Assembly (NCBI RefSeq): GCF_014836755.1
Contig: NZ_JACSQF010000006.1
Span: forward strand, 1-49,137
Direction of reading: 5' to 3'
Source: Oerskovia merdavium
GTDB lineage: Bacteria; Actinomycetota; Actinomycetes; Actinomycetales; Cellulomonadaceae
Length of the DNA: 49,137 bases
Program-made: the position numbers and the translations under genes
Part shown: piece by piece, positions 12,694 through 31,907 of the stretch
Layout of the letters: the number at the start of each line of letters is the position of its first letter
How positions within the stretch are numbered: the first letter of the stretch is position 1
Notes under the pieces: generated by a model
Told to the model about the DNA's origin: nothing
What the model saw: the letters and a program-made list of their open reading frames with translations, nothing else
Databases searched by the model: none

Positions 12694-14431
<1,738 letters not shown>

Positions 14432-14873
14432 CTCGGAGCGGGGCGTCAAGCCCGTCGCGCGCAGGTCGCTGACTGCGTGTCCTGCGCGGAGACGGGCCCA
14501 GGCTGCGCGTGGACAGCGGGTGCTCGGCGAGCGCGCGGCCGCGACCTGCCCGTGTTCGACGCGCTGGGATCGGTCGGTGTCGACCAGTCGGACTCACCTC
14601 CGCAGGGTGTTGACACGGCATGTGTGAGCGCTAACATGGCATTCACTGTCACGTGCGGCAAAGTCTGACGCACGCTCGCCGGTCGCCGAGCACCCGCTCG
14701 GGGAGGCGCGGTCGACAGTTCCGCTCGATGGCGAGCGGGCACCCTTCGTCGGGTGTCCTGGGCCTCACGGCTGAGTCCCTTGCTGGCCTCGTCGACGGTG
14801 ACGGCCCGATCTTCGGGGGAGAGCCCCGGATCGACCGGTCTGGCAGGAAGTACGTCCCGACAAAGGAGTTGAC
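14432..14873. other. Intergenic region with the GH43 promoter and long leader
   Basis: 442 nt without a recognised gene. The right part holds a promoter with an overlapping LacI-type operator (14610-14637), followed by a leader of about 230 nt before the GH43 start. No tRNA, riboswitch or conserved ORF was recognised in the rest. Confidence 0.6.
14610..14637 (+). promoter_or_regulatory. Promoter with LacI-type operator, GH43 cluster
   Basis: TTGACA (14610-14615) and TAACAT (14632-14637), spaced 16 bp, form a good sigma-70-type promoter. The operator TGTGAGCGCTAACA (14623-14636), a LacI/GalR-type dyad centred on GC, overlaps the spacer and -10. A bound repressor would exclude RNA polymerase. 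The same 17 bases (TGTGTGAGCGCTAACAT) recur at 44554-44570 before the GH127 gene. Confidence 0.85.
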
Positions 14874-17762
14874 GTGACAGGAGCAAGACGACGCCGGGTG
14901 CACACGATGGTCGGAGGGACCCTCCTCGTGGGGCTGCTGGTCCCCACCGCCGTCGCCGCGGAGGTGTCGCCGCCGCCGTCGGGCCTGACCTCGACGGACA
15001 ACGGCGACGGGACGTACGGGGTTCCCCTGCTGAACAGCGACGTGCCGGACATCAGCGTGGCGCGGGTGCCCGCTGCGGAGAGCACGGAAGGGCGTGACGT
15101 CTACTACATGATCAGCACGACCATGCACCTGAGTCCGGGCGCACCGATCATGAAGTCGTACGACCTGGTGAACTGGGAGACGGTCAACTACGTCTACGAC
15201 CGGCTGGGCATCGGTGACGCTCCCTCCCTGCGCAACGGCCAGAACTCCTACGGCGAAGGGCAGTGGGCCTCGTCGTTGCGCTACCACGACGGCAGGTTCT
15301 ACGTGGCGTTCAACACCAACAACCTCGGTGGTGCCTACGTCTACAGCACGGACGACATCGAGGACGGAACCTGGGAGAAGGTTGCGCTCGGCCGAGGGTT
15401 CCACGACCTGTCGCTCTTCTTCGACGAGGCCGGCGGGGGGACTCCCTACATCTTCCACGGGTCGGGCAGCACGAGCGCCGTGCAGCTCAGCGACGACCTC
15501 ACGACGATCGTCGCCGAGTACCCCGACATCTTCGGGTCGAAGGACTTCCCCGACTTCCCGATCCTCGCCAGCGGCATGCACTACGAAGGGACCCAGGTCT
15601 CCTACCGCGACGGCTACTACTACATGACGACGATCACCTGGCCGGCCGGCGGCAACCGGCAGGTCGTGCTCTTCCGCTCCAAGGAGCTGCTCGGTCGGTA
15701 CACGGCGGTCGACGGGACGAACACCTACGAGGTGCGCAGCGGCCTGGACTCCGACGGGTTCGCGCAGGGCGGCCTCGTCGACATCGCCTCGGCCGACGGC
15801 GGGACCGACTGGTACGGCATGTTCTTCCGGGACACCTATCCGCTCGGGCGGATCCCCGCCCTGATCCCCGCGACGTGGGAGGACGGGTGGCCGACCTTCG
15901 GTGACGACGGCGTCGTCCACGCAGGAGACACGTTCACCAAGCCGATCACGCTCACGCCCGAGCAGGACCGGGTCGAGCGACTCAAGTCCGTCGTGGCGTC
16001 CGACGACTTCGCCAACGACGCCGAGCACAAGACCTTCCGCGACACCCGCTGGGAGATTCCTGAGGCGCCCGAGTACGACGAGTCCCTGCTCGGGGTCGAG
16101 CTCGTCGACAACCCTGGCTTCGAGGACGCAGGCATCGAGCCCTGGGGGTCTCAGTTCGGCGCGATCATCTCGCGCGACCCGAGCACGGCATCGTCCGGGA
16201 CCGCGGCCCTGCGGGTCACCCACCGGACCGTCAACGGCTCTGCCCCCTACCAACAGCTCGACGGCAGGATCCAGGCAGGCATCACCTACGAGATCTCCGC
16301 ACGCGTGCGCTACACCGAAGGACCCGACACCGTGCGGTTCGACGTCGTGGGTGACTGGGGCACGGGCGTCAAGGTACTCGCCGGCGTCGATGCCGCGAAG
16401 GGGCGGTGGGCGACGATCACCGGTACCTACACGATCCCGGCCGACGCCGACGTGCGTTCCTTCAAGCTCGCCGTCGAGACACCGTGGGCGAACCCGCAGC
16501 CGCCGTCGTCGAGCGTCGGGTACGTGCTCGACGACGTCTCGGTGACGGGCAATGCTCCGCAGCTCGAGCACGTCCACGCCGACGAGGTGGCCTACAACGG
16601 GTCCGACCTGGACCTGGCATGGGAGTGGAACCACAACCCGGACAACCGCTACTGGTCGCTCACCGAGCGCGAAGGATGGTTGCGCCTCACGAACGGGCAC
16701 GTCGTGACGGGCGAGGCCGAGTACAGCAAGTCTCCCGGACGCGACCTGACCTACCTCGAGGAGGCGCGCAACACGCTGTCCCAGCGCACCTTCGGTCCCA
16801 CCGGTTCTGCTGAGACGCGACTGGACGTGTCAGCCATGCTCGACGGCGACGTGGCCGGCCTTGCGGTCTACGGCCGCAGCTTCACCTATGCGGGGATCAA
16901 GCAGGTCGACGGCGCTCGCACCCTGGGTCTCGTGACCCGCCTGCAGCCCTTCGACGAGTCGATCGAGGCCGCCGCGGTCGAGAGCTTCGTCCCTGGGACC
17001 ACGATCGACCTCGGGTCACGCACCGACGTCCGGCTCAAGGCGGACGCCGACTTCTCCTCCACCCCGGGGCAGCTGCGGGTCCAGTTCTCCTACAGCCTCG
17101 ACGGCCGGACCTGGCAGCCGCTCGGCCCCTCGCAGGGGCCCATCGTCATGGACTGGAGCCTGTCGCACTTCATGGCCAACAGGTTCGGTCTCTTCAGCTA
17201 CGCCACCGAGCAGACCGGCGGAACCGTCGACTTCGACTACTACTACCTCAGTGACGTGCTCGATGCGGACGGAGGCGCGGACCGGACGGCGCTCGACGCA
17301 GCGGTCGACGAGGCGCGAGGGCTCGACGAGCAGCGCTACACCCCGGAGTCCTGGACCGTCGTCGAGAAGGCGCTCGGCTGGGCGTTGGCCACCACGTCCC
17401 CGTCCACGCAGAACCAGGTCGATGCCCCGGCTCACGCCCTCTCCGTCTCGCTCGCATCGCTCGTCAGGAGGGACGCCAGCGAGGTCGCGTTCACGGCGGA
17501 GGCCGTCGTCCGACCGGTCGCAGGCAAGGACGTCGTCACGGTCCGGGTGATCAACGGCGAGGACGCCCCCGTGGACGTGACCGTCGCGACGTCGTACGGG
17601 ACCAAGACGTTCACGGCCGTCGCACCCGGCAAGAGCGCCCAGCAGTCGTTCGCCACCCGGCTCGCAGCCGTTCCCGCAGGAGAAGCGACCGTCACGGTCA
17701 CCCGGACGGTCGACGACCTGACGACCTCGCGCGTCGTCGCCTACGGCCGGACCGGGTCGTAG
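14874..17762 (+). CDS. Secreted GH43 beta-xylosidase/arabinofuranosidase with internal CBM
   Basis: A 962-residue exported enzyme. An RRRR signal peptide (residues 1-29, cut near AVAA-EV) is followed by a five-blade GH43 catalytic domain (~35-365; putative base Asp59 in SDVPDISV; GQWASSLRYHDGRFYVAF). Next come a CBM4/9-like jelly-roll (~405-558, NPGFEDAGIEPWG), a GH43 C-terminal concanavalin-like domain (~575-790), a short helical FIVAR-like segment and a ~90-residue tail shared with two other enzymes here. The CBM sits between the catalytic and C-terminal domains, which are usually adjacent. The GTG start follows AAAGGAG. Expression is probably controlled by the LacI-type operator upstream. 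Exact substrate (xylo- or arabino-oligosaccharides) is not decided by sequence alone. Confidence 0.92.
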   Translation: MTGARRRRVHTMVGGTLLVGLLVPTAVAAEVSPPPSGLTSTDNGDGTYGVPLLNSDVPDISVARVPAAESTEGRDVYYMISTTMHLSPGAPIMKSYDLVNWETVNYVYDRLGIGDAPSLRNGQNSYGEGQWASSLRYHDGRFYVAFNTNNLGGAYVYSTDDIEDGTWEKVALGRGFHDLSLFFDEAGGGTPYIFHGSGSTSAVQLSDDLTTIVAEYPDIFGSKDFPDFPILASGMHYEGTQVSYRDGYYYMTTITWPAGGNRQVVLFRSKELLGRYTAVDGTNTYEVRSGLDSDGFAQGGLVDIASADGGTDWYGMFFRDTYPLGRIPALIPATWEDGWPTFGDDGVVHAGDTFTKPITLTPEQDRVERLKSVVASDDFANDAEHKTFRDTRWEIPEAPEYDESLLGVELVDNPGFEDAGIEPWGSQFGAIISRDPSTASSGTAALRVTHRTVNGSAPYQQLDGRIQAGITYEISARVRYTEGPDTVRFDVVGDWGTGVKVLAGVDAAKGRWATITGTYTIPADADVRSFKLAVETPWANPQPPSSSVGYVLDDVSVTGNAPQLEHVHADEVAYNGSDLDLAWEWNHNPDNRYWSLTEREGWLRLTNGHVVTGEAEYSKSPGRDLTYLEEARNTLSQRTFGPTGSAETRLDVSAMLDGDVAGLAVYGRSFTYAGIKQVDGARTLGLVTRLQPFDESIEAAAVESFVPGTTIDLGSRTDVRLKADADFSSTPGQLRVQFSYSLDGRTWQPLGPSQGPIVMDWSLSHFMANRFGLFSYATEQTGGTVDFDYYYLSDVLDADGGADRTALDAAVDEARGLDEQRYTPESWTVVEKALGWALATTSPSTQNQVDAPAHALSVSLASLVRRDASEVAFTAEAVVRPVAGKDVVTVRVINGEDAPVDVTVATSYGTKTFTAVAPGKSAQQSFATRLAAVPAGEATVTVTRTVDDLTTSRVVAYGRTGS

Positions 17763-17771
17763 ATGGCGCGC

Positions 17772-17795
17772 GGCCCCGCCCTCACGGGCGGGGCC
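17772..17795 (+). terminator. Intercistronic hairpin between the two GH43 genes
   Basis: A perfect 10-bp GC stem, GGCCCCGCCC-tcac-GGGCGGGGCC, begins 9 nt after the first GH43 stop. It may end the first transcript, or stabilise it while the second gene is read through. The second gene has no obvious promoter of its own in the remaining 90 nt. Confidence 0.65.
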
Positions 17796-17885
17796 AGGTC
17801 CCCGGAGGCCACCACTCGTGCCGCGGCCCGACGTCGCGGCGGCACAGCACCACCCATGGAAGACCGACAGAGCAAGGAGGCTCTT

Positions 17886-20288
17886 GTGACACATCGTCAC
17901 GGACGACTGAAGGAACGCACCACCGCAATGATCCTGGCCGGTTCGCTGGGGGTCGTCGGACTGGCCGCGGTCGCGGTGCCCAGCTCCGCGGCGCCCGGCG
18001 CCGCCCACGCCCGGTCTGCGGACACCGCCTCGACGAACGTCGTCGCCAACCCGGGGTTCGAGGACGGTGTCGTCGCGCCCTGGGTGATCCGCAACGGGGG
18101 AGACCTCGAGCTCTCGGACGATGCGTACTCGGGAGCGTCCTCCGTCCTCGTCACCGAGCGCCAGACCACGCAGTCCGGCCCGTGGCAGGACCTCACCGGC
18201 AAGGTCGAGGCAGGAGGGTCCTATGCCGTGTCGGCCAAGGTGCGCTACGACACGGGCCCTGCGACCAAGCAGTTCTTCGTGACCGCGTTCACCGGGGGCT
18301 CCAGCTACACGAACATCGCGACCGGGACGCTGAACCGGGGTGAGTGGGGAACGCTCGAGGGCACCTGGCTCCTGCCCGCCGGGACGACACCGGCCGAGGC
18401 GCACGTCTTCGTCGAGACGCCCTGGGTGCCCGACCCCGCGGCGGACCCGGCACAGCACCTCATGGACTTCCGGGTCGACGACGTGTCGGTGACTCTCACG
18501 AGCCCGGGCGGTGGCGGGTTCGACGCCGTCGGCAAGGTCCCGGGAAACACCAACCCGCTCGTCTCCCACGCGTTCGGTGCCGACCCGTACGCGTTCGCCC
18601 ACGATGGCCGGGTCTACGTCTACACGACCAACGACACCCAGGAGTGGGCCCCCGACGAGAACAACATCAGCACGCCCAACACCTACGGGAAGATCAACCA
18701 GATCAACGTGATCAGCTCGGCCGATCTCGTGAACTGGACCGACCACGGTCCCATCCAGGTCGCGGGCCCCACCGGCGCGGCGACCTGGGCCAACAACTCG
18801 TGGGCTCCGGCGTTCGCCAGCAAGACGATCGCCGGCAAGGAGAAGTTCTTCCTCTACTTCGCGAACAACGCGGCCAGCGTCGGCGTCCTGGAAGCGGATT
18901 CTCCTCTCGGCCCCTGGACGGACCCCCTCGGCAAGCCCCTGATCAGCCCTGAGACGCCCGGAGCGGCGAGCAACGGCAACTGGCTGTTCGACCCCGCGGT
19001 GGTCGTCGACGACTCGGGGCAGGGCTACCTGTACTTCGGTGGCGGCGAAGGGAACCCGCCCGAGACGCCCAACAACCCCAGGACCACCCGCTGGATCAAG
19101 CTCGGCGACGACATGGTCTCCACCGTCGGGACCGCCCAGGTCGTCGACGCCCCCCGCATGTTCGAGGCGAGCCATGTCTTCGAGCGCGAGGGGAAGTACT
19201 ACTACTCCTACTCGACCAACTTCAGCAGCGTCGCTCCGTCGCCGGGCTACCCGGCCAACGGCGTGATCGCCTACATGATGGCGGACTCGCCAGAGGGACC
19301 CTGGACCCCCGAGCAGTTCGAGGGCACCGTCCTCGACGGCATGTACCAGGAGTTCGGTGTCGGGGGGAACAACCACCAGTCGTTCTTCGAGCTCGACGGT
19401 ACCTACTACATGGCCTACCACGCCCAGACCCTCAACCTCGCACTCGTCGGTGGAGACGCGAGCAAGGTCAGGGGATTCCGCAGCACCCACATCAACGAGG
19501 TGACGTTCCAGCCCGACGGCACCATGAACAAGGTCGATGCCGACTACGTCGGTGTCTCGCAGATCGCGCCTCTCGACCCGTACTCGATCATCGAGGCCGA
19601 GACGATCGGCTACCAGAAGGGGATCACGACCGCGCTGCTCACGAGCCCGACGTCGACGCCCGCTCTCAAGCTGACGGACATCGACTCCGGCGACTGGGTG
19701 GCTCTGGCCGGTGTCGACTTCGGTCAGGACGGGGCGACCGAGTTCGGCACCACGATCGCACCCCTCGCCGGCGGCCGCGTCGAGGTTCGGCTCGACAGCC
19801 CCGACACGTCCACGAGCGAGAACCTGGTCGGCACGATCGACGTGCCCGCAGGTGACGGAACCTGGACCGACCTCGCGACCACGATCGACCGCACGACCGG
19901 TGTCCACGACGTCTACCTGACGTTCGCCGGCGACCAGGAGGGCGACCTGTTCGACGTCGACACCTGGCGATTCGGGGTCGCCGGCGCCGAGGTCGAGCCC
20001 GTGGATCTCGCGGTCGTGGCCAGGACGCAGTGCGTCGCGGGCCGGGCGAACCTCACGGTGCGTGCGGTCAACGGTGAGGACGTGGCCGTGAGCGTGGCGC
20101 TCACGACGCCGTTCGGCACCAAGACGTTCGCGTCGGTGGCGCCGGGCAAGAGCGCGTCGCAGTCGTTCAACAGCCGTGCGGCTGCGGTCCCCGCGGGGAC
20201 CGCGACGGTCGTGGGCACGATCGGCACGGGGGCCGGGGCCCGCTCGACGACGTTCGACGTCGAGTACCCGGCCACGACCTGCGGCTGA
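17886..20288 (+). CDS. Secreted GH43 arabinoxylan arabinofuranohydrolase-like enzyme
   Basis: An 800-residue exported enzyme. The GTG at 17886 follows AAGGAGGCTCTT; earlier in-frame starts lack such a site. Signal peptide residues 1-~36. An N-terminal CBM4/9-like module (~52-205, NPGFEDGVVAPW) precedes the GH43 domain (~219-558; FGADPYAFAHDG with Asp233 as putative base, WAPAFASK, then FEASHVFEREGKYYYSYS with the putative acid Glu). A CBM6-like module (~566-700, YSIIEAETIGYQKG) and the shared C-terminal tail (~709-800) with CVAGR near its start and TTCG at its end follow. The GH43 plus CBM6 order matches arabinoxylan-debranching enzymes. It is probably co-expressed with the preceding GH43. 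Confidence 0.92.
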   Translation: MTHRHGRLKERTTAMILAGSLGVVGLAAVAVPSSAAPGAAHARSADTASTNVVANPGFEDGVVAPWVIRNGGDLELSDDAYSGASSVLVTERQTTQSGPWQDLTGKVEAGGSYAVSAKVRYDTGPATKQFFVTAFTGGSSYTNIATGTLNRGEWGTLEGTWLLPAGTTPAEAHVFVETPWVPDPAADPAQHLMDFRVDDVSVTLTSPGGGGFDAVGKVPGNTNPLVSHAFGADPYAFAHDGRVYVYTTNDTQEWAPDENNISTPNTYGKINQINVISSADLVNWTDHGPIQVAGPTGAATWANNSWAPAFASKTIAGKEKFFLYFANNAASVGVLEADSPLGPWTDPLGKPLISPETPGAASNGNWLFDPAVVVDDSGQGYLYFGGGEGNPPETPNNPRTTRWIKLGDDMVSTVGTAQVVDAPRMFEASHVFEREGKYYYSYSTNFSSVAPSPGYPANGVIAYMMADSPEGPWTPEQFEGTVLDGMYQEFGVGGNNHQSFFELDGTYYMAYHAQTLNLALVGGDASKVRGFRSTHINEVTFQPDGTMNKVDADYVGVSQIAPLDPYSIIEAETIGYQKGITTALLTSPTSTPALKLTDIDSGDWVALAGVDFGQDGATEFGTTIAPLAGGRVEVRLDSPDTSTSENLVGTIDVPAGDGTWTDLATTIDRTTGVHDVYLTFAGDQEGDLFDVDTWRFGVAGAEVEPVDLAVVARTQCVAGRANLTVRAVNGEDVAVSVALTTPFGTKTFASVAPGKSASQSFNSRAAAVPAGTATVVGTIGTGAGARSTTFDVEYPATTCG

Positions 20289-20304
20289 CGACCGCACCAG
20301 CTCC

Positions 20305-20337
20305 GCCGGGGTCGCGAGGTCCTCTCGCGGCCCCGGC
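20305..20337 (+). terminator. Hairpin terminator after the GH43 pair
   Basis: GCCGGGGTCGCGAG (20305-20318) pairs with CTCGCGGCCCCGGC (20324-20337) with one G-U pair and a 5-nt loop, 17 nt after the stop. Confidence 0.8.
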
Positions 20338-20463
20338 GTGAACCCTCCGGTCCAGACGGGCCGGTGACAGGACCAGCACGACCAGCACCAGGCGCTCGGC
20401 GCCTGCTCCTCGGCCGCCTCTCTCCGGCACCAAGAGCGCAGTGCATGCCGAAGGTGGCAGCGA

Positions 20464-20495: not shown

Positions 20496-21110
20496 GTGAC
20501 GGATACATCCAGCGCGACCGGTGGGCTGCGCGCGCTCGCTCGGGCGAGCGTGCGTACCGCGATCGCGGACCGTGCCCTCCAGCTGTTCGACGAGCAGGGG
20601 TACGACGAGACGACGGTCGACGACATCGCCGCAGCCATGGGGATCTCGGGTCGCACCTTCTTCCGCTACTTCGCGACCAAGGAGGACGTCGTGATCGGCG
20701 ACCTGATCATCGGGGGCGCTGCCCTGAGGGACAGGGTGGCCGCGCTGATCGTGGAGCAGGCTCCGTGGCACGCGTTGCACGGTGCGATGCGCGAGGGAGC
20801 TGAGGAGATCGACGCGAACCCCGTCCGCTGGCGGCGGACCATGCGCGTCATCAACAGCACGGCGTCGTTGAGAGCGCGCAACATCGAGAAGCACCTGACG
20901 TCGTCCGCCTTGCTGACCCCCGTCATGTCCGGGCACGTCGCGCCTGACCCGAGACTCGGGGACCTGCCGGCTCGTGTCGTCGTGTCCTCTGCTTTCGCCT
21001 GCCTCGACTCCGCGCTGACGAGCTGGACCACCGCTGACGGCTCCGTCTCGCTCGTCGACACGCTCGACATCGCCTTCGCCGCCAGGCTCGACCAGACCGC
21101 CGTGCGCTAG
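20496..21110 (+). CDS. TetR-family regulator
   Basis: A 204-residue regulator. Its N-terminal helix-turn-helix (IADRALQLFDEQGYDETTV, then IAAAMGISGRTFFRYFATKED) is the type found in MftR/AcrR-like TetR proteins. The C-terminal ligand domain contains an acidic/aromatic helix pattern without recognised specificity. The GTG at 20496 was chosen because it begins the conserved region, and a -10 element directly precedes it. It lies between the GH43 pair and the LacI-MATE chimera and seems to form a unit by itself. Its targets are unknown. Confidence 0.9.
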   Translation: MTDTSSATGGLRALARASVRTAIADRALQLFDEQGYDETTVDDIAAAMGISGRTFFRYFATKEDVVIGDLIIGGAALRDRVAALIVEQAPWHALHGAMREGAEEIDANPVRWRRTMRVINSTASLRARNIEKHLTSSALLTPVMSGHVAPDPRLGDLPARVVVSSAFACLDSALTSWTTADGSVSLVDTLDIAFAARLDQTAVR

Positions 21111-21350
21111 GGAGCTCTGCCCAGTCCTTGCACGGCGGCGACCGTCCGCCTGTGCGGCGTTCGAGGTGTGTCCAGACGCGTCCGACGCCGCCCCCGTGCC
21201 GCGACCGGGTTGCCCGGTGCGACGCGCGAAAGTCCCCGCCGCCGTCGGGTCCCCGACGCGCTGTCGCGGCCTCCAGTCGTGGTGAGCCGACCGCACCGCG
21301 CGGTGTGGTTGCGCTTCCATGATCCACTGGGCGCACGAGAGGGGTGAACG

Positions 21351-22649
21351 ATGAAGTCACGTGTCGCGACGATCCAGGACGTCGCACGGAGCGCGGAGGT
21401 CTCGACGACGACGGTGTCGAGGGTCGTCAACCGCAAGGGGTTCGTGAGCGACGGCGCGCGGCTCGCGGTGCTCGAGGCGATCGACGACCTCGGCTACGTG
21501 CCGTCGGCCGCTGCACGAGGGCTCGCTTCCCGGCAGAGCGGGATGATCGGGCTGTGCCTGCCCGACACGGGGAAGCCCGACGACCTGGCCGGTCGTGCGC
21601 ACGACGGCTCCGGGGTGCGCGTGCTCCTGGACCCGCGGCCGGCCGGTGAGATCGGGTGGGGAGGCCTGTACTTCGGTGAGGTGCTGCGCGGAGCCGAGTA
21701 CGCGGCCTGGGAAGCGGGCCTGGCCCTCACCGTCGCGACGGCGCGCGAGCCCGATCTCGAGGCCCGCGTCCTGGCCATGGCGGGTCGTGTCGACGGGCTC
21801 GTCGTGGTGGCCCAGTCCCTCCCGGACGACCTGCTCGATCACGTCGCCCGACGCGTCCCGCTCGTGGTGCTCGCGGGCCCGATGGTCACCGACCGTTACG
21901 ACCACGTGACGGTCGACAACGCCGCGGGCATGACCCGGCTCGTGGAGCACCTCGTCGTGGACCACGGGATCCGCGACCTCGCCTACGTGGCAGGGCGAGC
22001 CGGTACCCCCGACGACGCGATCCTCGGCGTCGGCGCGCCCTCGTTCCTCGCGGGTCTCGGCACGACGCTGCTCGTCGTGCTCGTCAACCTCTCGCTGGTT
22101 CGAACGGGTGGTGCGACCGTCCTCGCGGCGTTCGCCGTCTGCGCCCGGCTGCAGACCTTCGCGACCATGCCCCAGACCGGCATCAGCCAGGGCCTTCAAC
22201 CCGTCGTGGGGTACAACGCGGGGGCGCGGCTCGTGGACCGCGTCAGGAGGGCACGCACTCTCGCGCTCCGGGCGACGACGCTCTACAGCGTGCTCGCCGC
22301 GACCGCGCTCGCGGTCCTGGCGGAACCTCTCGTGACCTTCTTCGTCGACGAGCCCGACGTCGTCCGCACCGGGTCCGTGGCGCTTCGCGTCCTCGCCGTC
22401 GGCCTCGCGGTCTCCGAGGTCGCCCCGCTCGTCTCGGCGTACTTCCAGGCGCTGGGACGCGCTCGCCCGTCCTACCTGATCTCCCTCGGGACGCTCGTCG
22501 GGATCAAGGTGCCCCTCGTCCTCGTCCTGGGACCCACCGGATCCAGCGGCACCTGGATCGCGCTCGCCGCGGGCGAGGTGCTGGCCGCCCTGGCCGCGCT
22601 CCTGGTCCTCCTCGCCGTCCAGCGTCGAGACCGTCGCGGCGCTCCCTAG
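21351..22649 (+). CDS. LacI repressor front fused in frame to MATE transporter C-terminal half
   Basis: One 432-codon frame joins two unrelated families. Residues 1-~220 are a LacI/GalR regulator: helix-turn-helix TIQDVARSAEVSTTTVSRVVN, hinge YVPSAAARGLASRQS, then the N-subdomain and start of the sugar-binding fold through LAYVAGRAGTPDD. From residue ~222 (AILGVGAPSFLAGLG) the protein is the second half of a MATE multidrug exporter with about six membrane helices (GISQGLQPVVGYNAGAR, AYFQALGRARPSYLIS). The junction is at about 22011-22020. The repressor lacks its C-subdomain and the transporter its first six helices, so neither should work normally. It looks like a deletion or rearrangement scar, or an assembly joint. 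ATG 21351 has GAGAGGGG upstream. Confidence 0.88.
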   Translation: MKSRVATIQDVARSAEVSTTTVSRVVNRKGFVSDGARLAVLEAIDDLGYVPSAAARGLASRQSGMIGLCLPDTGKPDDLAGRAHDGSGVRVLLDPRPAGEIGWGGLYFGEVLRGAEYAAWEAGLALTVATAREPDLEARVLAMAGRVDGLVVVAQSLPDDLLDHVARRVPLVVLAGPMVTDRYDHVTVDNAAGMTRLVEHLVVDHGIRDLAYVAGRAGTPDDAILGVGAPSFLAGLGTTLLVVLVNLSLVRTGGATVLAAFAVCARLQTFATMPQTGISQGLQPVVGYNAGARLVDRVRRARTLALRATTLYSVLAATALAVLAEPLVTFFVDEPDVVRTGSVALRVLAVGLAVSEVAPLVSAYFQALGRARPSYLISLGTLVGIKVPLVLVLGPTGSSGTWIALAAGEVLAALAALLVLLAVQRRDRRGAP

Positions 22650-22676
22650 GGACGCCCTGGCGGGTGCTCCGATCGT

Positions 22677-22698
22677 CCCGCCCTCCGGCGAGGGCGGG
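22677..22698. terminator. Hairpin between convergent genes
   Basis: CCCGCCCT-ccggcg-AGGGCGGG, an 8-bp perfect stem. It lies between the chimera stop (22649) and the leftward hydrolase stop (22719) and may serve both. Confidence 0.65.
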
Positions 22699-22718
22699 CC
22701 GACCTGACGTGCCCGGCC

Positions 22719-23669
22719 TCAGCCCGTCGTCAGCTCGCGGGCCGCCGCCCACTCCCGGAACCCGGCCGCGATCTGCGGCGCGTGCGTGTGGTGGAGGTAG
22801 TGCTCGCCGGGCACAGGAACCACGGTGCCGTCCTCGACGGTCGCGGCCTGCTCCTCGTGCAGCGCCAGCCAGTCCGGGTTGTTCGCGTTGTCGGCCTCGA
22901 CGAACAGCAGCAGCGGCAGGTCCGCCGGGAACGTCGTCCCGAGCGCACGCTCGAAGTTCGTGCTGATGTGCGACATCTCGTCGAGGTACGTGGGGCGCAG
23001 CGAGTTCCGGTGGGTGAACATCGTCATCTGCTCGCGTGCGTGGTCGGAGTACACGGAGCCGTCGAGCCCGCCGCTCCCGAACGCGGTGAGGACGCGGACC
23101 AGGCCGAGGTTCTTCGCCGCGGCCATGAGGCCCGTCGGGAACGCCGTGTCGGTGTGCGGTTGCCCGGGGACGCTCGTGTCGACCCCGACGAACGCCATCA
23201 CCTCGTCGGGGTAGCGTGCGGCGTACTCGATGCCGTAGATGCCCGCGATCGAGTGCCCCATGAGGACGTAGCGGTCGAGGTCGAGCGCCTGGAGCGCCTC
23301 GTGCACCTCGGTCACGACGTTCTCCGTGGTCCGCTCCACGTCGGTGCCGTCGCTCAGTCCGTAGCCGAAGGGTTCGACGACGACGACCCGGTGGTCGTGG
23401 GCCAGGTCCGTGACCAGCGGCTCGAAGTCGAGGACGGGAGAAGGCGTCCCGAACCCGGGCAGGAGGACCACGTCGACCGGGCCGGCCCCGGTGACGAGCA
23501 CGTTCATCTGGCGCCCGTCGACCGTCACCGTCTGGCCGTAGGACTCGATCCGGTCGCTCTCGCGCGCGGTCGCGACGGCGTTCACGACGGTCGTCGTGGC
23601 CAGGGCCACCGCGACCACGGCGCCGGTCGCGGCCACGGCCACGAGCACTCTCTTCACAGGCTTCTTCAC
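22719..23669 (-). CDS. Membrane-anchored alpha/beta hydrolase
   Basis: A 316-residue alpha/beta-fold hydrolase. The N-terminal hydrophobic segment (VLVAVAATGAVVAVALATT) is a signal anchor, so the catalytic domain faces outside. The nucleophile elbow is GHSIAG (Ser), the oxyanion segment is LLPGFGTPSP, and the catalytic His is likely in VPGEHYLHH near the C terminus. The GTG at 23669 has GAGAGGA just upstream. It is divergent from a two-component system at 23840, which may regulate it. The substrate cannot be told from the sequence. Confidence 0.88.
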   Translation of the reverse strand: MKKPVKRVLVAVAATGAVVAVALATTTVVNAVATARESDRIESYGQTVTVDGRQMNVLVTGAGPVDVVLLPGFGTPSPVLDFEPLVTDLAHDHRVVVVEPFGYGLSDGTDVERTTENVVTEVHEALQALDLDRYVLMGHSIAGIYGIEYAARYPDEVMAFVGVDTSVPGQPHTDTAFPTGLMAAAKNLGLVRVLTAFGSGGLDGSVYSDHAREQMTMFTHRNSLRPTYLDEMSHISTNFERALGTTFPADLPLLLFVEADNANNPDWLALHEEQAATVEDGTVVPVPGEHYLHHTHAPQIAAGFREWAAARELTTG

Positions 23670-23839
23670 GCGTTCCTCTCTACGCGGCACACGGTGTGCC
23701 CCGCCTTCCGGTCCAGCATCGTGTGCCGGCAGAACGCGCGCATCAGCCCTGCGCGGTCACCTCGGTACAGCGATCGCAGTACGCGCGCGTCACCTTGCGG
23801 GGCGATCCGCCGGCGCGGGTCGACCGGGATACTGGGGGA

Positions 23840-25015
23840 GTGACGTCACCTCGCTCCGCCGCAGCAGCGGTCCCCGTCGGCGACGTCGTCGCGATCGCCA
23901 CCGTCGTGCTCTTCGGAGTCCTGCCGTTCCCCGACGAGGACTTCCGCACGCGGGGCCTGCCGATGGTGATCGCGCTCGTCCCGGTCGCGGTGATGCCGCT
24001 GCGCCGACGACGGCCGATCACCGCGCTGGCGGTGAGCGTCGTCTGCGTCGTCGCCGTCGCGCTCGCGGGCACCCTCGCACCGGCTGCACTGGTCGCCGTC
24101 ATGATCACGGCCTTCGCGGTCACGAACCGGACGCGCCGCACGGTCGGGCTCGCGTGCGTGGGCGCGGCCGCCCTCGTCGTGTTCCTCGTGAGCGCCGTCC
24201 CGCTCGGCGGTGAGCTCTTCCACCCCGGGGCGACGCAGTTTGTGACGCTCGTCGTCCTCGCCGGAGCCATGGGCGACGCCACCAGGTCACGTCGCGAGGC
24301 GCTCGCGGCCGTGACGGAGCGGGCCGAACGCGCCGAGCAGGGGCGGGACGAGGAGGCGCGGCGGCGCGTGGTCGAGGAGCGCGTGCGTATCGCCCGTGAC
24401 CTGCACGACGTCGTCGCCCACCAGATCTCGGTGATCAGCCTGAGCGCGGGGGTCGCGTCGTCGTCGCTCGAGTCCCGGCCCGAGCGGGCCCGCGAGGCCC
24501 TCACCACCATCCGCAGCGCCTCGCGGACCGTCCTCGCCGACATCGGCGGCCTCTTGGCCATGCTGCGCGCGCAGGACGACGTCGAGCACCGCGACCTGCA
24601 CCCGCAGGCGGGGCTGGCGCAGCTCGACGCGCTCGTCGAACGCTTCGCGGGCGTGAGCCTCGACGTCGTGCTGCGGAGAGAGTCGGGCCTCGTCGCCCTC
24701 TCGCCGGCCTGTGACCACGTCGCCTACCTCGCTCTCCAGGAGGGACTCACGAACGCGCACAAGCACGGCGCCGGTGACCGGGCCGTCGTCGACGTCCGCA
24801 CGCGTGGCGGTGCGCTCGCGCTGAAGGTCACCAACCCGGTGCGGCAGGGCGGTGCCGATGCACCCCCGAGCGGCCACGGGTTGCGTGGGCTGCGCGAGCG
24901 GGTCGCGTCGGTGCGGGGTCGTGTGGAGGCGTCGACCGTGGACGGCGAGTTCCGGCTCGATGTCACCGTGCCCGCCGACAGGACCGTGCCCGCCGAACCA
25001 GGGGAGGGGCGATGA
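23840..25015 (+). CDS. Sensor histidine kinase, NarL-partner type
   Basis: A 391-residue membrane kinase. About six N-terminal hydrophobic helices (residues ~8-150) lead to a coiled linker (ERAERAEQGRDEEARRR), the HisKA_3 phosphoacceptor helix IARDLHDVVAHQISV and a HATPase domain with N-box LQEGLTNAHKHG and GHGLRGLRERV. The extracellular loops are short, so it probably senses through the membrane. The GTG at 23840 lies 6 nt after GATACT, a possible -10, suggesting a leaderless mRNA. The stop overlaps the response regulator ATG (ATGA). Confidence 0.93.
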   Translation: MTSPRSAAAAVPVGDVVAIATVVLFGVLPFPDEDFRTRGLPMVIALVPVAVMPLRRRRPITALAVSVVCVVAVALAGTLAPAALVAVMITAFAVTNRTRRTVGLACVGAAALVVFLVSAVPLGGELFHPGATQFVTLVVLAGAMGDATRSRREALAAVTERAERAEQGRDEEARRRVVEERVRIARDLHDVVAHQISVISLSAGVASSSLESRPERAREALTTIRSASRTVLADIGGLLAMLRAQDDVEHRDLHPQAGLAQLDALVERFAGVSLDVVLRRESGLVALSPACDHVAYLALQEGLTNAHKHGAGDRAVVDVRTRGGALALKVTNPVRQGGADAPPSGHGLRGLRERVASVRGRVEASTVDGEFRLDVTVPADRTVPAEPGEGR

Positions 25016-25680
25016 TCACCGTCCTCGTGGTCGACGACCAGCCGCTGGTGCGCCAGGCGGTGCGCGACATCCTGACCGACAGCGGCGGTGTCCACGTCGT
25101 GGGCGAGGCGTCGAACGGTCGCGAGGCCGTGCGCGCGGCCGCGGCACTGGCTCCCGACGTCGTCCTGATGGACATCCGGATGCCCGAGCTCGACGGGATC
25201 TCCGCGACCGAGCAGATCTGCGCCGGACCGGCGGGCGACGCGACGCGCGTGCTCGTCCTCACGACCTTCGAGGAGGACGAGTACGTCGTCGCGGCCCTCC
25301 GTGCGGGCGCGAGCGGTTTCATCGGGAAGGGGGCCGAGCCCGAGGACATCGTTCGTGCGGTGCACACGGTTCATCTGGGCGAGTCGCTCCTGTCCTCCGC
25401 GGCGACGCGGGCGCTCATCCAGCGCTTCGTGCGCCGACAGTCGCCGCAGGAGAGCGCTTGGGAGGACGAGGGGCTCGACCGCCTCACCGAGCGCGAGCGC
25501 GAGGTGTTCCTGCTCGTCGCGGGAGGGCTGACGAACCAGGAGATCGCGGTCGAGCTCGTGATCTCCGCGCACACCGCCAAGACGCACGTCAACCGGATCA
25601 TGGCGAAGGTGTACGCCCGTGACCGGGCGCACCTGGTGATCCTGGCCTACGAGTCGGGGCTCGTCACGGCGCGTCCGTGA
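25012..25680 (+). CDS. LuxR/NarL-family response regulator
   Basis: A 222-residue regulator with a receiver domain (VVDDQPLVRQ, phosphoacceptor in VVLMDIRMPELDG, Thr in VLTTFEEDE, Lys in IGKGA) and a C-terminal LuxR helix-turn-helix (LTEREREVFLLVAGGLTNQEIA, then HTAKTHVNRIMAK; shown in parts). It is coupled to the upstream kinase by a 4-nt overlap. The pair resembles actinobacterial DesR/LiaR-type systems that react to membrane stress. It converges on the glycosyltransferase gene with only 7 nt between the stops. Confidence 0.95.
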   Translation: MITVLVVDDQPLVRQAVRDILTDSGGVHVVGEASNGREAVRAAAALAPDVVLMDIRMPELDGISATEQICAGPAGDATRVLVLTTFEEDEYVVAALRAGASGFIGKGAEPEDIVRAVHTVHLGESLLSSAATRALIQRFVRRQSPQESAWEDEGLDRLTEREREVFLLVAGGLTNQEIAVELVISAHTAKTHVNRIMAKVYARDRAHLVILAYESGLVTARP

Positions 25681-25687
25681 CGTCCGC

Positions 25688-26512
25688 TCAGCCGCGTGGA
25701 GGGCGACGAGGTGGCCGTGGCCGCCGAACCACACCCCGGGACCGGGCCCGACGGCGGCGCAACCCGGACGCGATCCGCACCGACCACCTCTCCCAGGGCG
25801 GGCTGTCGGCCCAGTTCACGGCAAGCGTGTGCCACGCCAGCCGGAAGCGGCGGCGCACGGCGGCCACGGACTCGAAGGTGCGCCCGGAGACGCCGACGAC
25901 GAGCCGGGGGTCGTAGCGGACGCGGGCGGTGCTGCCGAGCTGGAAGCTGAGGTCGGTGTCGTCGTGCACGAGCGCGTCGTGCCGGTGGACGTGGCGACGG
26001 ACCTCGCGCCAGGCATCGACGCGCATCGCCATGTTGGATCCCCACAGGGGGACGTTGCCGACGGCGGCACGCATCCCCCCGTAGTAGCCCCACAGGTAGA
26101 AGATCCGGGCGAGGCGACCACGGACCGCCGGCAGGTCGTAGAAGAAGCCCGAACCGGTGAGGGCGGCCAGCCCTGGGTCGTCGGCGAAGGCTCGGTGCAC
26201 CCGTTCGAGCCAGTCCTCGGGAGGAAGGGTGTCGGCGTCGCAGCGCACGATGATGCCGGTCAGGACGGCGTCGTACCCGGTGGACGCGGCCGCAGCGATG
26301 CCGGGCCGGGTCTCGCTGATCACGTGCGCGCCCGCGCGGCGCGCCACTGCCGCGCTGTCGTCAGAGGACGCGTTGTCGACCACGATCACCTCGTGCGGAG
26401 GCCGGGTCTGTCGACCGATCGCGGACAGGCAGCTCTCGAGGAGCAAGGCGTCGTCCTTGACGGGGACGACGACCGTCATCGGGGTGGCGCAGGCCGAGGC
26501 CGCCTGGCTCAC
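25688..26512 (-). CDS. Family 2 glycosyltransferase
   Basis: A 274-residue GT-A fold transferase. The nucleotide-sugar site is VVVPVKDDALLLESCLSAI with VVDNASSDDS, and the metal-binding DxD is RCDADTLPPEDW. The acceptor-side motif HDDTDLSFQL is near residue 190. There is no membrane helix. The GTG at 26512 overlaps the stop of the upstream membrane protein gene (GTGA), so the two are an operon. The C terminus is basic and arginine-rich. Donor and acceptor are unknown; a glycolipid or carotenoid-type acceptor is possible for a membrane-protein partner. Confidence 0.88.
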   Translation of the reverse strand: MSQAASACATPMTVVVPVKDDALLLESCLSAIGRQTRPPHEVIVVDNASSDDSAAVARRAGAHVISETRPGIAAAASTGYDAVLTGIIVRCDADTLPPEDWLERVHRAFADDPGLAALTGSGFFYDLPAVRGRLARIFYLWGYYGGMRAAVGNVPLWGSNMAMRVDAWREVRRHVHRHDALVHDDTDLSFQLGSTARVRYDPRLVVGVSGRTFESVAAVRRRFRLAWHTLAVNWADSPPWERWSVRIASGLRRRRARSRGVVRRPRPPRRPPRG

Positions 26513-27117
26513 GGACGCCTCACCAGGAAGAGCCCGGCGAGGAGGGCGCCGACCCCGCCTGCGGCGAGGTCGCCGAGCGTGTCCCGGTAGCCGACGTTGA
26601 TCGACTCGTCGACGAAGGCGGCGCCGGCCCACTCGCCCACCTCCCACAGCAGCGAGAGGAGGACACCGAGCGCCGTCGCCGTCACCACCGCACCCAGACG
26701 TGGGCGGGAGAGGCCGGAGCCGTCGTGGCGAGCGCCTGCCCCGGTCGAGCGGGCGAGCATCGCACCCGGCACGGCAAGGGCTCCCACGAACACGAGGAGG
26801 GCATACGCGAGGACCGTGAGGACGGCAGTCGCCACCAGGTGCACGACGAGATCGAGCCAAGAGGCCAGGGCATAGAGGTCCAGCAGGCTGATCCAGGCCG
26901 CGGCCGACAGGGTCAGGCCGATGGCAGGGTCGACGGGTCCGTCGAGCCCGATCGCGCGGGGGAGCACGGTGCCGAGCAGCACGAGCGAGAGCAGGGCGAT
27001 CCCGACCGGGCCGTAGAGCAGGCCACCCACGGGGACCGCGATCCCTGCGAGGACCCGCACGAGGTCACCCGCAGCGGTCCACGTTGTGCTGCGTCCGTGG
27101 ATCTTGCCGGTGGTCAT
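26509..27117 (-). CDS. Multi-pass membrane protein, DUF2238/YjdF-like
   Basis: A 202-residue protein with five or six hydrophobic helices. The motif LLWEVGEWAGAAFVDESINVGYRDTLGDL (key part WEVGEW then DTLGDLAAGGVGALL) resembles the WExxEW and DTxxDLxxNxxGA pattern of the YjdF/DUF2238 family. The function of the family is unknown. The ATG at 27117 begins the frame. It overlaps the glycosyltransferase gene and may provide or position its membrane substrate. Confidence 0.75.
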   Translation of the reverse strand: MTTGKIHGRSTTWTAAGDLVRVLAGIAVPVGGLLYGPVGIALLSLVLLGTVLPRAIGLDGPVDPAIGLTLSAAAWISLLDLYALASWLDLVVHLVATAVLTVLAYALLVFVGALAVPGAMLARSTGAGARHDGSGLSRPRLGAVVTATALGVLLSLLWEVGEWAGAAFVDESINVGYRDTLGDLAAGGVGALLAGLFLVRRP

Positions 27118-27213
27118 CGAGCAAACCTAGCGACGCTCACGGCGACTCGCGCGGGAACGGGGCAGCGAGGGTCGTCCGGCGGCAGCGAGACCCACGGCGC
27201 CGGTCCTGGCGCG

Positions 27214-27672
27214 CTAGAGCTCTCGCGGGTCGTCCGTGACGTCGGTGATGGCGACGTGGACGGCGACAGCGCCGGCCAGGGGCGCGAGGTCGCCGAGCAG
27301 GGTCCGCAGGCACGAGGTCGCGGCGCGGCGGACGGCGGCGGCGAGCGGGAGCAGTGGCTCGTCGAACGCGGCGACGATCTCGATCGTGACGGCCACGAGC
27401 CGGTCGTGGTCGTCGGTCGAGCAGGTGATCGTGAGCGGCGCGGCGCCCGGCACCGCAGAGACGCCCTCGCGGAGGGCCGCGACCACGACGTCGGCCGCGA
27501 CGAAGTAGCCCGCAGCACCGGCAGGGGTGGCCGTACGACCGCGGACCGGGGCAGAGGGCCGGAAGGCCGACAGCGCTCTGAGGAGCGCATTCTCCCGCAC
27601 GACGGTCCACCCTCGGTCGGTGTGCCGCCGCAGTGCCTGCGTGGCACGGTCGAGGACGGCTTCGTCGCTCAT
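27214..27672 (-). CDS. Asp23/Gls24-like protein paired with the ECF sigma factor
   Basis: A 152-residue soluble protein with the alternating strand/helix pattern of Asp23/Gls24 proteins (LTITCSTDDHDRLVAVTIEI, then LRTLLGDLAPLAGAVAVHVAITDV in parts). The ATG at 27672 overlaps the sigma factor stop (ATGA) and has GGAGGG 7 nt upstream; the ATG 6 nt earlier is too close to that site. Asp23-type proteins gather at the membrane through AmaP, which is encoded in the divergent operon. It could act on the sigma factor or with the divergent Gls24 proteins. Confidence 0.8.
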   Translation of the reverse strand: MSDEAVLDRATQALRRHTDRGWTVVRENALLRALSAFRPSAPVRGRTATPAGAAGYFVAADVVVAALREGVSAVPGAAPLTITCSTDDHDRLVAVTIEIVAAFDEPLLPLAAAVRRAATSCLRTLLGDLAPLAGAVAVHVAITDVTDDPREL

Positions 27673-28235
27673 CGCCATCCCTCCATCGTCTCGGCCAGCG
27701 TGGAGCGGGCCCGGTGGAGGAGCCCGCGTACGGCGTCGTGGGTCGTTCCGAGGATCAACGCGATCTCGGCATAGTGCAGTCCTTCGATCTCGCGCAGCAG
27801 CCAGCACGACCTCTGCAACGGTGGCAGACCGAGCAGGGCGATGTCGAGGGCCTCGACGAGCGCGCTGTCCACGGCGTCCTGGTCGGGTCGGTGCGACGTG
27901 GTCTCGACGAGATCGTCGGGAAGGGGACCGGGCTGCAGCGCGACCCGGCTGCGGTGCCGATAGGCCTGACGGGTGGCGATCCCGAAGAGCCAGGTGCGCG
28001 GGGTGGACTCGCCGCGGAAGTCGGCGAACCCGGTCCACGCGGCGACCAGGGTGTCCTGGAGGCAGTCGGCGGCGACCTCGGGATCGTGGACCATCCGCAG
28101 GACGTAGCGGTAGAGCGCGGGGCCGTGCCGGTCGACGAGCTGGGAGAACGCGTCCCGATCGCGGAGGGCAGCCCGGCGTGCGAGCGACAGGTCCGAGACC
28201 GCCCCCGAGACGCCACCCGCATCGAGGGGTTCCAT
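27669..28235 (-). CDS. ECF sigma factor next to the Asp23/Gls24 locus
   Basis: A 188-residue extracytoplasmic-function sigma factor. Region 2 (DAFSQLVDRHGPALYRYVLR, then ADCLQDTLVAAW) and region 4 (LQRSCWLLREIEGLHYAEIA, then THDAVRGLLHRARSTL) are both complete. The ATG at 28235 was chosen because the longer frame runs through the intergenic promoter region. It is divergent from the seven-gene Asp23 operon and probably directs it, or its own operon. No classical zinc anti-sigma factor is present; the coupled Gls24-like protein may take that place. Confidence 0.92.
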   Translation of the reverse strand: MEPLDAGGVSGAVSDLSLARRAALRDRDAFSQLVDRHGPALYRYVLRMVHDPEVAADCLQDTLVAAWTGFADFRGESTPRTWLFGIATRQAYRHRSRVALQPGPLPDDLVETTSHRPDQDAVDSALVEALDIALLGLPPLQRSCWLLREIEGLHYAEIALILGTTHDAVRGLLHRARSTLAETMEGWR

Positions 28236-28283
28236 CCGTCCGACGATATCGATCCTCGACGGACTCGCCAGCGGCGCGGCATG

Positions 28284-28299
28284 TGTGATGTAGATCACA
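28284..28299. promoter_or_regulatory. CRP/GlxR-type binding site
   Basis: TGTGATGTAGATCACA matches the consensus TGTGA-N6-TCACA exactly and has the central TA preferred by actinobacterial GlxR/Crp proteins. It lies between the divergent sigma factor (start 28235) and the Asp23 operon (start 28400). cAMP-dependent control of one or both is inferred. Confidence 0.85.
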
Positions 28300-28399
28300 C
28301 TGACGAGTGCGTGACGTATGACCCGTAGGTCGGCACTCACTGGGGAACGTCCCAGACCGCCCGGCACGGGCGGACCAGCCTGAGCACGAGGAGCCGACG

Positions 28400-28960
28400 A
28401 TGAGCGAGCAGAGCACCCCCACCACGGGAACCGCGGCTGCGGGGTCCGCGGCGCGACCACGGGACAACGGTCCGGCACGTGCCCCACGAGAGAGCTCGGA
28501 GCACGTGTCGGCCCTTGCCTCGGAGCACGGCACCACGACGATCGCGGACCAGGTCGTCGCCAAGATCGCGGGTATCGCGACCCGCAACGTCCAGGGCGTC
28601 TATGCCGTGGGCGGGGGAGCGGCTCGGGCGTTCGGCGCCATCCGCGAGTACATCCCCGGGAGCGGCAGCGACACCACCTCCGGCGTCCACGTCGAGGTCG
28701 GCGAGCGGCAGGCCGCAGTCGACCTGGACCTGGTCGCGGACTACGGGGTCTCGATCGCCGACCTGGCGCAGGCGGTCCGGCGGAGCGTCATCACCTCGAT
28801 CGAACGCATGACCGGGCTCGAGGTCACCGAGGTCAACATCGACGTCAACGACGTCCATCTGCCCGACGACGACGCCGACTCGAGCTCAGGGCGGTCCTCG
28901 TCGCGGGAGGAGGCCTCAGGCAGCGGTGAGGGCGAGGAGGGTGGCGGGCGAGTGCGATGA
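28400..28960 (+). CDS. Asp23/Gls24 family protein
   Basis: A 186-residue soluble protein. The Asp23/Gls24 core (~residues 40-155) has TTIADQVVAKIAGIATRNVQGVYAV at its start and the family's VEVGERQAAVDLDLVADYG and TGLEVTEVNIDVNDVH strands. Both ends are disordered (Thr/Ala-rich N terminus; Asp/Ser/Glu-rich C terminus). It is the most canonical family member in this operon and its first gene. The next start overlaps its stop (ATGA). Asp23 proteins form membrane-associated clusters through AmaP and are linked to envelope stress. Confidence 0.93.
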   Translation: MSEQSTPTTGTAAAGSAARPRDNGPARAPRESSEHVSALASEHGTTTIADQVVAKIAGIATRNVQGVYAVGGGAARAFGAIREYIPGSGSDTTSGVHVEVGERQAAVDLDLVADYGVSIADLAQAVRRSVITSIERMTGLEVTEVNIDVNDVHLPDDDADSSSGRSSSREEASGSGEGEEGGGRVR

Positions 28961-29412
28961 CCACCTCGTCACCGCAGTCCTCCGGGTCTCCGACGTCCGG
29001 CCGGGACGCGGAGCCTGCCGCCCCGACACCCCTGGACGTCGCGGCCGCGTTCGATGCCTCGCCCGTGGGGCGGGACCTCGAGGCCGCCCCCCTTCGTTCG
29101 TCTCGTGCGTCTGCGGGTGACGAGGAGGACCTGGCGGACCGGGTGGTGGCGGCGGTGCTCGCTGTCCCGGGAGTCGTGCGTCTGCACGCCGGGGCGTTCG
29201 GGGAGGTCGCCACATACCTCCCAGGTCGCGCCGTCACCGGGGTGCGGCTCCGGCCCGACGAGGCCGAGGTGCACCTGGTGGTCTCCGCCGGGCGCCCCAT
29301 CCCGGAGGTTGCCAGCAACGTCCACGAGGCCGTGCGCGCCCTGGTCTCGGGGCCGGTCCACCTCTTCGTCGAGGACGTCGAGTCCCCGCCGACAAGATCG
29401 CCCGCGCCCTGA
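28957..29412 (+). CDS. Divergent Asp23/Gls24-like protein
   Basis: A 151-residue protein whose second half (DLADRVVAAVLAVPGVVRLH, then VRLRPDEAEVHLVVSAGRPI and VHEAVRALVSG) follows the Asp23 strand/helix order. The N-terminal ~50 residues are low-complexity. It is coupled to the first gene by an ATGA overlap. It is probably an additional subunit of the Asp23 assembly. Confidence 0.8.
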   Translation: MTTSSPQSSGSPTSGRDAEPAAPTPLDVAAAFDASPVGRDLEAAPLRSSRASAGDEEDLADRVVAAVLAVPGVVRLHAGAFGEVATYLPGRAVTGVRLRPDEAEVHLVVSAGRPIPEVASNVHEAVRALVSGPVHLFVEDVESPPTRSPAP

Positions 29413-29436
29413 CCGGGCGCCGTCCAAGGAGTACAC

Positions 29437-29616
29437 ATGTCCGTGTCCACGACCGGTCTTCTCACCGGCCTCCTGCTCGCCATCGCCGCGATCCTCGGGG
29501 GCTTCTGGGGGTTCCTCCTCGCCGTCGTCCTCGGCGGCGTCGGCTGGGTCGTCGCGGCCCAGATCGAGGGGCGGATAGACCTCGGCGCCGTCTTCCACAG
29601 CCGACGCCATGTCTGA
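29437..29616 (+). CDS. Small DUF2273-like membrane protein
   Basis: A 59-residue protein. The ATG at 29437 has AAGGAG 6 nt upstream. One long hydrophobic hairpin or pair of helices runs from GLLTGLLLAIAAILGGFWGF to VLGGVGWVVAAQ, followed by a short charged tail (IEGRIDLGAVFHSRRHV). It resembles DUF2273 proteins, small membrane proteins that occur in Asp23 operons. The end overlaps the next gene start by 8 nt, confirming the frame. Its shortness makes it easy to miss. Confidence 0.85.
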   Translation: MSVSTTGLLTGLLLAIAAILGGFWGFLLAVVLGGVGWVVAAQIEGRIDLGAVFHSRRHV

Positions 29617-30049
29617 TCAGGCCTGGGCCGGCGACGTCCTCCTCGACGCCCCGCGGCCCGACGTCCGTGCCGAGCCGGTCGACGCCGCGGACCGGGGCGT
29701 GCTGCGGGTCGCTGACCGTGTGGTCGACAAGGTCGCCCGCGCGGCGGTGCTCGGCGTCGCCGGCGTCGCGCCCGCTGCCGCCACGGCCGGGACGGTGGGG
29801 AGAGCCCTGGGCAGGAGCTATCCCCAGGTCGTGTGCTCACGAGCCGGCGACCGTGCCCGTGTCCTCCTCGAGATCGCCCTGGTGTGGCCCTACCCGGCCG
29901 CCCGGGTCGCTCGCGAGGTGTGCGAAGCCGTGACCGACCAGCTCCTCGCTCTCGCGGGGGTGCACGTGGACGAGGTCCGTACGACCGTCGCTCGCATCGT
30001 CGACCCGTCCGACGTCGCCGGAACACCCAAGGAGCAGCGAGTCCGATGA
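29609..30049 (+). CDS. Asp23/Gls24-like protein
   Basis: A 146-residue soluble protein with the family pattern: VLRVADRVVDKVARAAVLGVAGV, a strand region ARVLLEIALVWPYPAARVA and the final helix/strand VTDQLLALAGVHVDEVRTTV. It lacks the acidic tail of the first member. It overlaps the small membrane protein upstream by 8 nt and the following gene by 4 nt (ATGA). Confidence 0.8.
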   Translation: MSDQAWAGDVLLDAPRPDVRAEPVDAADRGVLRVADRVVDKVARAAVLGVAGVAPAAATAGTVGRALGRSYPQVVCSRAGDRARVLLEIALVWPYPAARVAREVCEAVTDQLLALAGVHVDEVRTTVARIVDPSDVAGTPKEQRVR

Positions 30050-30606
30050 GCACACCCACGGCACCGTCCACGCAGACCGTCCCCGCCCCTGCCAGGTCGC
30101 CCCGGGCCGGGCTCGCGCTGACCTCGTGGGCCTTCTTCCTGGCGATCGTCCTGCTCGCCGTCGCGGTGCTCGCCGGGCAGGCGTCGTTCGTGGCGGTGCA
30201 GGGGGCCGGCACCAGCTGGATCGCCTCGCTCGCGGACTCCCTGGACGGCCTGCAGCCCGAGACGTGGGTGGGGGCGGCAGGGGTGGTGGTCGCACTGCTC
30301 GGCCTCTGGTTGGTCTGGCAGGCGGTGCGTCCCCGTCCGCGGACCACCCGGCGGATCTCCGCCGGCAGCGGGATCCACGTGCGCTCTGCCGACGTCGCCC
30401 GCTGGGTGAACGCGACGGCCCGAGACGTGCCCGGGGTGCTGGACACCAGCACCTCTGTCTCTCGTACCGCGGTCCGGGTCACGGTCCGCTCGACCGGCTC
30501 CCCGGACATCCTCGACGACGTCCGCGCCGAGGTCTCCCACCAGCTCTCGGCGTTCGAGCAGCCGCCGCGCCTGACCGTGCGCTCGGGCGAAGGGCAACGA
30601 TCATGA
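30046..30606 (+). CDS. DUF6286-like membrane protein of the Asp23 locus
   Basis: A 186-residue protein with two membrane helices (WAFFLAIVLLAVAVLAG at ~28-45 and WVGAAGVVVALLGLWLVW at ~75-92), followed by a cytosolic domain (residues ~105-180) of alternating strands and helices like those of AmaP proteins. The arrangement matches DUF6286 proteins found next to AmaP in actinobacteria. It overlaps both neighbours by ATGA. Confidence 0.78.
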   Translation: MSTPTAPSTQTVPAPARSPRAGLALTSWAFFLAIVLLAVAVLAGQASFVAVQGAGTSWIASLADSLDGLQPETWVGAAGVVVALLGLWLVWQAVRPRPRTTRRISAGSGIHVRSADVARWVNATARDVPGVLDTSTSVSRTAVRVTVRSTGSPDILDDVRAEVSHQLSAFEQPPRLTVRSGEGQRS

Positions 30607-31232: not shown

Positions 31233-31282
31233 GGGTGCACGGCAGACGACGGCCCGTCGTGACACCACTACCCTTGACGCTC

Positions 31283-31879: not shown

Positions 31880-31907
31880 TGCGCCCGTCGGGGTCGAGGC
31901 CGGACTG

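Follow-up and report, generated by a model that had tools for sequence, protein, structure and literature searches.

A LacI–MATE fusion frame in Oerskovia merdavium: a probable deletion remnant of a lacI–APH–MATE operon

Results

A single frame joins the front of a LacI repressor to the back of a MATE exporter

The DNA analysed here, referred to as the window, spans 49137 bases at the start of an Oerskovia merdavium contig that is 207740 bases long. It contains a chimeric frame that, judged from comparative sequence analysis, is very probably the deletion-made remnant of a lacI–APH–MATE operon kept by relatives, as an expressed or a silent pseudogene. Most likely the frame is dead and does not represent a new kind of protein.

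In the ORF list of the window the frame is a single ORF on the + strand (21351-22649, 432 aa, ATG start) with zero internal stops. Pfam places a LacI HTH domain (PF00356) at residues 7-52 (E 1e-15; 57.7 bits, above the curated cut-off of 27) and a MatE domain at residues 230-389 (E 3.2e-18, also above the curated cut-off). The initial annotation had described an in-frame LacI–MATE chimera, and the uninterrupted frame with a LacI HTH in front and MatE behind agrees with that description. Its residue borders held in outline, LacI in front and MATE at the back, but not in detail: instead of residues 1-220 and 222-432, alignment to Oerskovia enterophila assigns residues 1-222 to LacI and 223-432 to MATE, with the joint at 22017. 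The lacI 5′ part (21351-22016, + strand) retains 222 codons of an originally ~374-codon repressor, covering HTH 7-52 and part of the effector-binding core, and the MATE 3′ part (22017-22649, + strand) retains the last 210 codons of an originally ~452-codon exporter, corresponding to the second MatE repeat, plus the stop. By itself the open frame is weak evidence, since this DNA is GC-rich and another frame stays open for 315 codons downstream of the joint, compared with 209 codons for the MATE frame and 105 for the third.

Neither parental domain is complete. With LacI/GalR repressors such as PurR and CcpA (PF00356 plus Peripla_BP), the fusion shares the N-terminal HTH and the first part of the core, but it lacks residues 223-374 and hence most of the region matched by Peripla_BP_3 in the relative's LacI (200-361); a complete effector-binding and dimerisation core is absent. 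Pfam detected no Peripla_BP domain in the fusion even at E values up to 1, while the intact O. enterophila LacI has Peripla_BP matches between 107 and 361. On the LacI side, the top matches in NCBIfam and PDB are PurR and CcpA-type proteins, including the ‘glucose-resistance amylase regulator’, which we take to be CcpA. With MATE exporters (PF01554) the fusion shares the second MatE repeat, residues 224-420 aligning to 239-436 of BH2163 (PDB 4lz6) at E 2.3e-23, but the first 242 residues, or N-lobe, are missing. A MATE exporter has two MatE repeats (12 helices); Pfam finds one MatE stretch in the fusion versus two in the intact O. enterophila protein, and about six membrane helices in the MATE part would agree with both the hydropathy and the structure model. 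NCBIfam agrees, with PurR/CcpA-like matches over the front part and MATE matches over the back, all of them below their cut-offs.

The joint is accounted for by one deletion

Seven genomes of the genus, the window's own included, were compared. In O. enterophila DSM 43852 (NZ_MAQA01000021.1) the two halves of the fusion match separate places on one contig, with protein identities of 93% for fusion residues 1-223 (LacI) and 88% for residues 222-431 (MATE). At the DNA level, window positions 21223-22017 match the lacI side and 22017-31885 match from within the MATE gene onward, at 89-90% identity and with the same downstream genes. The window thus equals the O. enterophila sequence minus 2177 bp, with both flanks colinear and a single gap. 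The junction lies at 22017, where one base (G) is common to both parental flanks. Missing relative to O. enterophila are LacI residues 223-374, the entire kinase gene and MATE residues 1-242, counted from the GTG at L037:3507. The parental genes are close together and co-oriented in the relative, and this comparison shows the fusion to have originated by simple deletion relative to an intact lacI–APH–MATE arrangement.

A large deletion with in-frame joining had been proposed in the initial annotation, and the colinear flanks and single 2177-bp gap bear this out. It had also suggested that sugar-uptake genes might have lain between the halves. Comparison with the closest genome did find genes between lacI and MATE, but of another kind, as the gap in O. 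enterophila holds the end of lacI, an APH-family kinase gene and the start of the MATE gene. A repeat-mediated deletion was considered and rejected, since in the parental break regions of O. enterophila no common word of at least 7 bases was found within 30 bases of both breaks. The left break in O. enterophila is spanned by a weak overlapping palindrome (L037:2047-2064).

Alternatively, the deletion could be an artefact of an assembly joint, the genome carrying a complete operon. The source assembly is a draft of 46 contigs, and a second change in synteny occurs close by, at ~21223. Yet there is no direct repeat in window positions 21900-22150, and the lack of a shared word in the parental break regions leaves nothing obvious to cause a collapse. 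Moreover, the joint connects parts of one operon in the correct order and orientation, with synteny continuing ~9.9 kb further downstream, and the missing DNA is not found on other contigs of an assembly that is 99.93% complete. A search of the window's genome with the deleted DNA gave only six short matches, the best at 68% over 170 bp and the other five spanning 32-53 bp at 79-91%, and the best match to the O. enterophila kinase was 31% identical. With colinear flanks, no collapse-prone repeat and no good match to the missing DNA in the genome, an assembly joint, which the initial annotation had offered as its alternative, is disfavoured and appears very unlikely.

On the preferred reading, a remnant left by a genuine deletion, one event of ~2.18 kb, its ends sharing no more than 1 bp of homology, would have taken LacI 223-374, the kinase and MATE 1-242, and the two ends would have been left in the same frame by chance, at odds of about one in three. 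Transcription of the fused frame may still be driven by the retained upstream region. With much of the LacI core and the MATE N-lobe missing, the product would be expected neither to respond to an effector nor to transport, and the locus would have lost its kinase and exporter functions. As a pseudogene, the frame would be a clean case of one deletion giving rise to an in-frame chimera, which could pass for a new domain architecture in annotation.

An intact lacI–APH–MATE set is present in relatives

In O. enterophila the genes lie in the order lacI (374 aa), APH-family kinase (328 aa) and MATE (452 aa), with almost no spacing; the MATE length is counted from the GTG at L037:3507, and GTGs at 3501 and 3456 are possible alternative starts. 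Eighteen loci were examined, namely 17 that match the fusion protein, O. enterophila among them, and one stretch from a further genome (G004). The three-gene set is intact in 3 of the 18, belonging to O. enterophila, Sanguibacter gelidistatuariae and Streptomyces sp. CB02058, and thus occurs in several actinobacterial genera (L039:8001-11473, L040:8001-11491 and L049:8001-11550). Six loci have APH–MATE without a lacI orthologue within the fetched stretch, two have MATE without APH, and seven have LacI relatives alone. We infer that the complete three-gene state is ancestral, given its spread among relatives and the incompleteness of both domains in the window.

The position of an APH-family kinase next to an exporter suggests that the set may handle a phosphorylated compound. 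Matches of the kinase in PDB were weak, at best a hygromycin-B 4-O-kinase over ~50 residues (E 7e-4). In a literature search, no paper on the lacI–APH–MATE set came up. The intact set of the relatives is a more useful lead than the fusion itself.

The region upstream of lacI is retained and contains a putative operator

Homology to O. enterophila begins at ~21223, so that a retained lacI upstream region (21223-21350, + strand) precedes the fused frame and may contain its promoter. Within it, the block TGTGGTTGCGCTTCCATGAT, located 47 bases before the start, agrees at 19 of 20 positions with a block that lies 50 bases ahead of lacI in Sanguibacter; among 200 single-base shuffles, the highest count was 16. 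This block includes TGGTTGCGCTTCCA (21306-21319, + strand), in which 5 of 7 arm pairs match and which is plausible as a LacI operator. The operator reading rests on conservation in Sanguibacter and not on the pattern. The window has a single exact copy of TGGNNGCGCNNCCA, which precedes lacI; allowing one mismatch raises the number of matches to 5, the exact one included, versus 5.31 expected, which is no enrichment. Across the genome the pattern is found at 17 places versus 36 for the reversed control, and by itself it therefore carries no weight.

Against an operator at this position, the site misses 2 of 7 arm pairs and failed a palindrome scan that allowed at most one mismatch. Other palindromes near the lacI start in the window passed the same scan, for example one of 20 bases at 21290-21309; the scan found none such in O. 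enterophila, and no palindrome in the Streptomyces lacI upstream region passed it.

Constraint, predicted structure and spread of the fusion

Relative to O. enterophila, dN/dS is 0.16 for the LacI half and 0.25 for the MATE half. Among neighbouring genes the corresponding values are 0.26 for a hydrolase and 0.38 for a sensor-kinase ORF, the latter with 90 gap positions and an unverified start; the regulator gene of this two-component pair was also located in O. enterophila. With Sanguibacter as outgroup, amino-acid changes in the LacI half were polarised as 3 in the window and 1 in O. enterophila (11 ambiguous), and those in the MATE half as 7 and 7 (11 ambiguous). Over the sites with at least 80% conservation, the window shows one departure in LacI and two in MATE, compared with 0 and 3 in O. 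enterophila, so there is no general excess on the window side. One of the changes in the MATE half replaces Gly with Glu at a position where all 17 other MATE rows have the glycine. Both parental domains are incomplete, yet dN/dS is low and the changes show no general excess. Decay is thus barely visible in the sequence, which would fit a recent deletion and, equally, retained function or constraint.

AlphaFold2 modelling of the fusion (24 rows) gave a mean pLDDT of 69.7 and a pTM of 0.52. The HTH helices (8-47) and the helices from residue 300 on were modelled confidently, and the region of the first MATE helix (230-290) moderately. Confidence fell below 50 at residues 53-62, 75-107, 176-198 and 205-232, the last two of which fall where the LacI remnant ends and at the joint.

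The low dN/dS of the LacI half would also suit partial function: the truncated LacI half might retain some repressor activity or disturb other LacI proteins, or there might be separate translation of the MATE half. Other LacI-type matches are present in the genome. The dimer interface, however, is largely lost, and we regard partial function as very unlikely.

We searched 396 genomes of the order at E 1e-35, with four candidates scored in each and no further strains of the species among them. Matches to the fusion came from 48 of these genomes, and apart from the window's own row none covers most of both halves. Some LacI rows continue beyond the joint, by as many as 66 residues, and there are rows in frames far longer than one LacI or MATE gene. 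The architecture of a membrane-tethered factor was found nowhere else among these genomes at the same settings, and titles and abstract openings in the literature yielded nothing on a LacI–MATE fusion.

These results bear on whether the frame might encode a functional membrane-tethered regulator, with the LacI HTH anchored by the MATE C-lobe and acting on the site upstream of lacI. The frame is open, the upstream region with its operator-like site is retained, the HTH is conserved and confidently modelled, and dN/dS is low in both halves, none of which is specific to such a function. MATE helix 7 starts on the cytoplasmic side, and given this topology the HTH would be cytoplasmic. LacI proteins, on the other hand, bind as dimers via the core, which is cut in the fusion. 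The low model confidence at the core end and the joint, the Gly-to-Glu change and the absence of any other row covering most of both halves in the 396-genome search also argue against a tethered regulator, which we consider most improbable. CadC and ToxR each consist of a winged-HTH domain, a single membrane helix and a sensor domain. As membrane-bound one-component regulators they join a DNA-binding domain to a membrane part (PMC5430869). The fusion resembles them in this respect but differs in consisting of two cut domains joined by deletion. There is only a small chance that it represents a newly born membrane-anchored LacI-type protein, still acting from the membrane on its own conserved putative operator.

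The left-hand neighbourhood and the GH43 genes

The window also carries two GH43 ORFs (14874-20288), whose end is ~1 kb from the start of the fusion. A TetR-type gene lies in the interval, and another TetR-type ORF precedes the GH43 pair. The initial annotation had raised the possibility that the deletion leaves an arabinoside regulon derepressed. This is not borne out: lacI's shared neighbours are the kinase and MATE genes, and no exact operator-like site occurs in the window other than the one before lacI itself. Derepression would find little to act on in cis, because lacI's partners lay in the deleted stretch. Nor do other sites support an arabinoside regulon under LacI: no exact site occurs near the GH43 genes, and one-mismatch sites are present at chance frequency; two of these lie at 15273, inside the first GH43 ORF, and at 14147, ~0.7 kb before it and inside a TetR-type ORF. 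Window positions 1-21222, GH43 genes included, gave no blastn match in 40 kb of O. enterophila sequence around lacI. A further genome of the genus has an 85% match to 14850-20198 on a contig (G001, C35) for which no fusion-protein match is listed. Nothing beyond closeness in the window's genome links LacI to GH43.

Synteny with O. enterophila breaks directly before lacI (window 21110-21223), the left side departing at ~21223. This break is a second change at the locus, separate from the joint. The MFS gene that adjoins lacI in O. enterophila lies on another contig of the window's genome (C19) in other surroundings, where no further match to the O. enterophila stretch extends on either side beyond ~2.2 kb. 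A conserved MFS–lacI adjacency was rejected, since the O. enterophila MFS had no tblastn match at the Sanguibacter, Streptomyces and Promicromonospora loci or at one Demequina locus.

Window 19980-20388, which takes in the 3′ end of the second GH43 ORF together with ~100 bases beyond it, matches G000:C4:67368-67776 at 98% identity. Pieces of this stretch recur at ~66-99% identity in many places in all seven genus genomes searched, and also in the window at 48791-49020; the stretch is probably a repeated C-terminal module.
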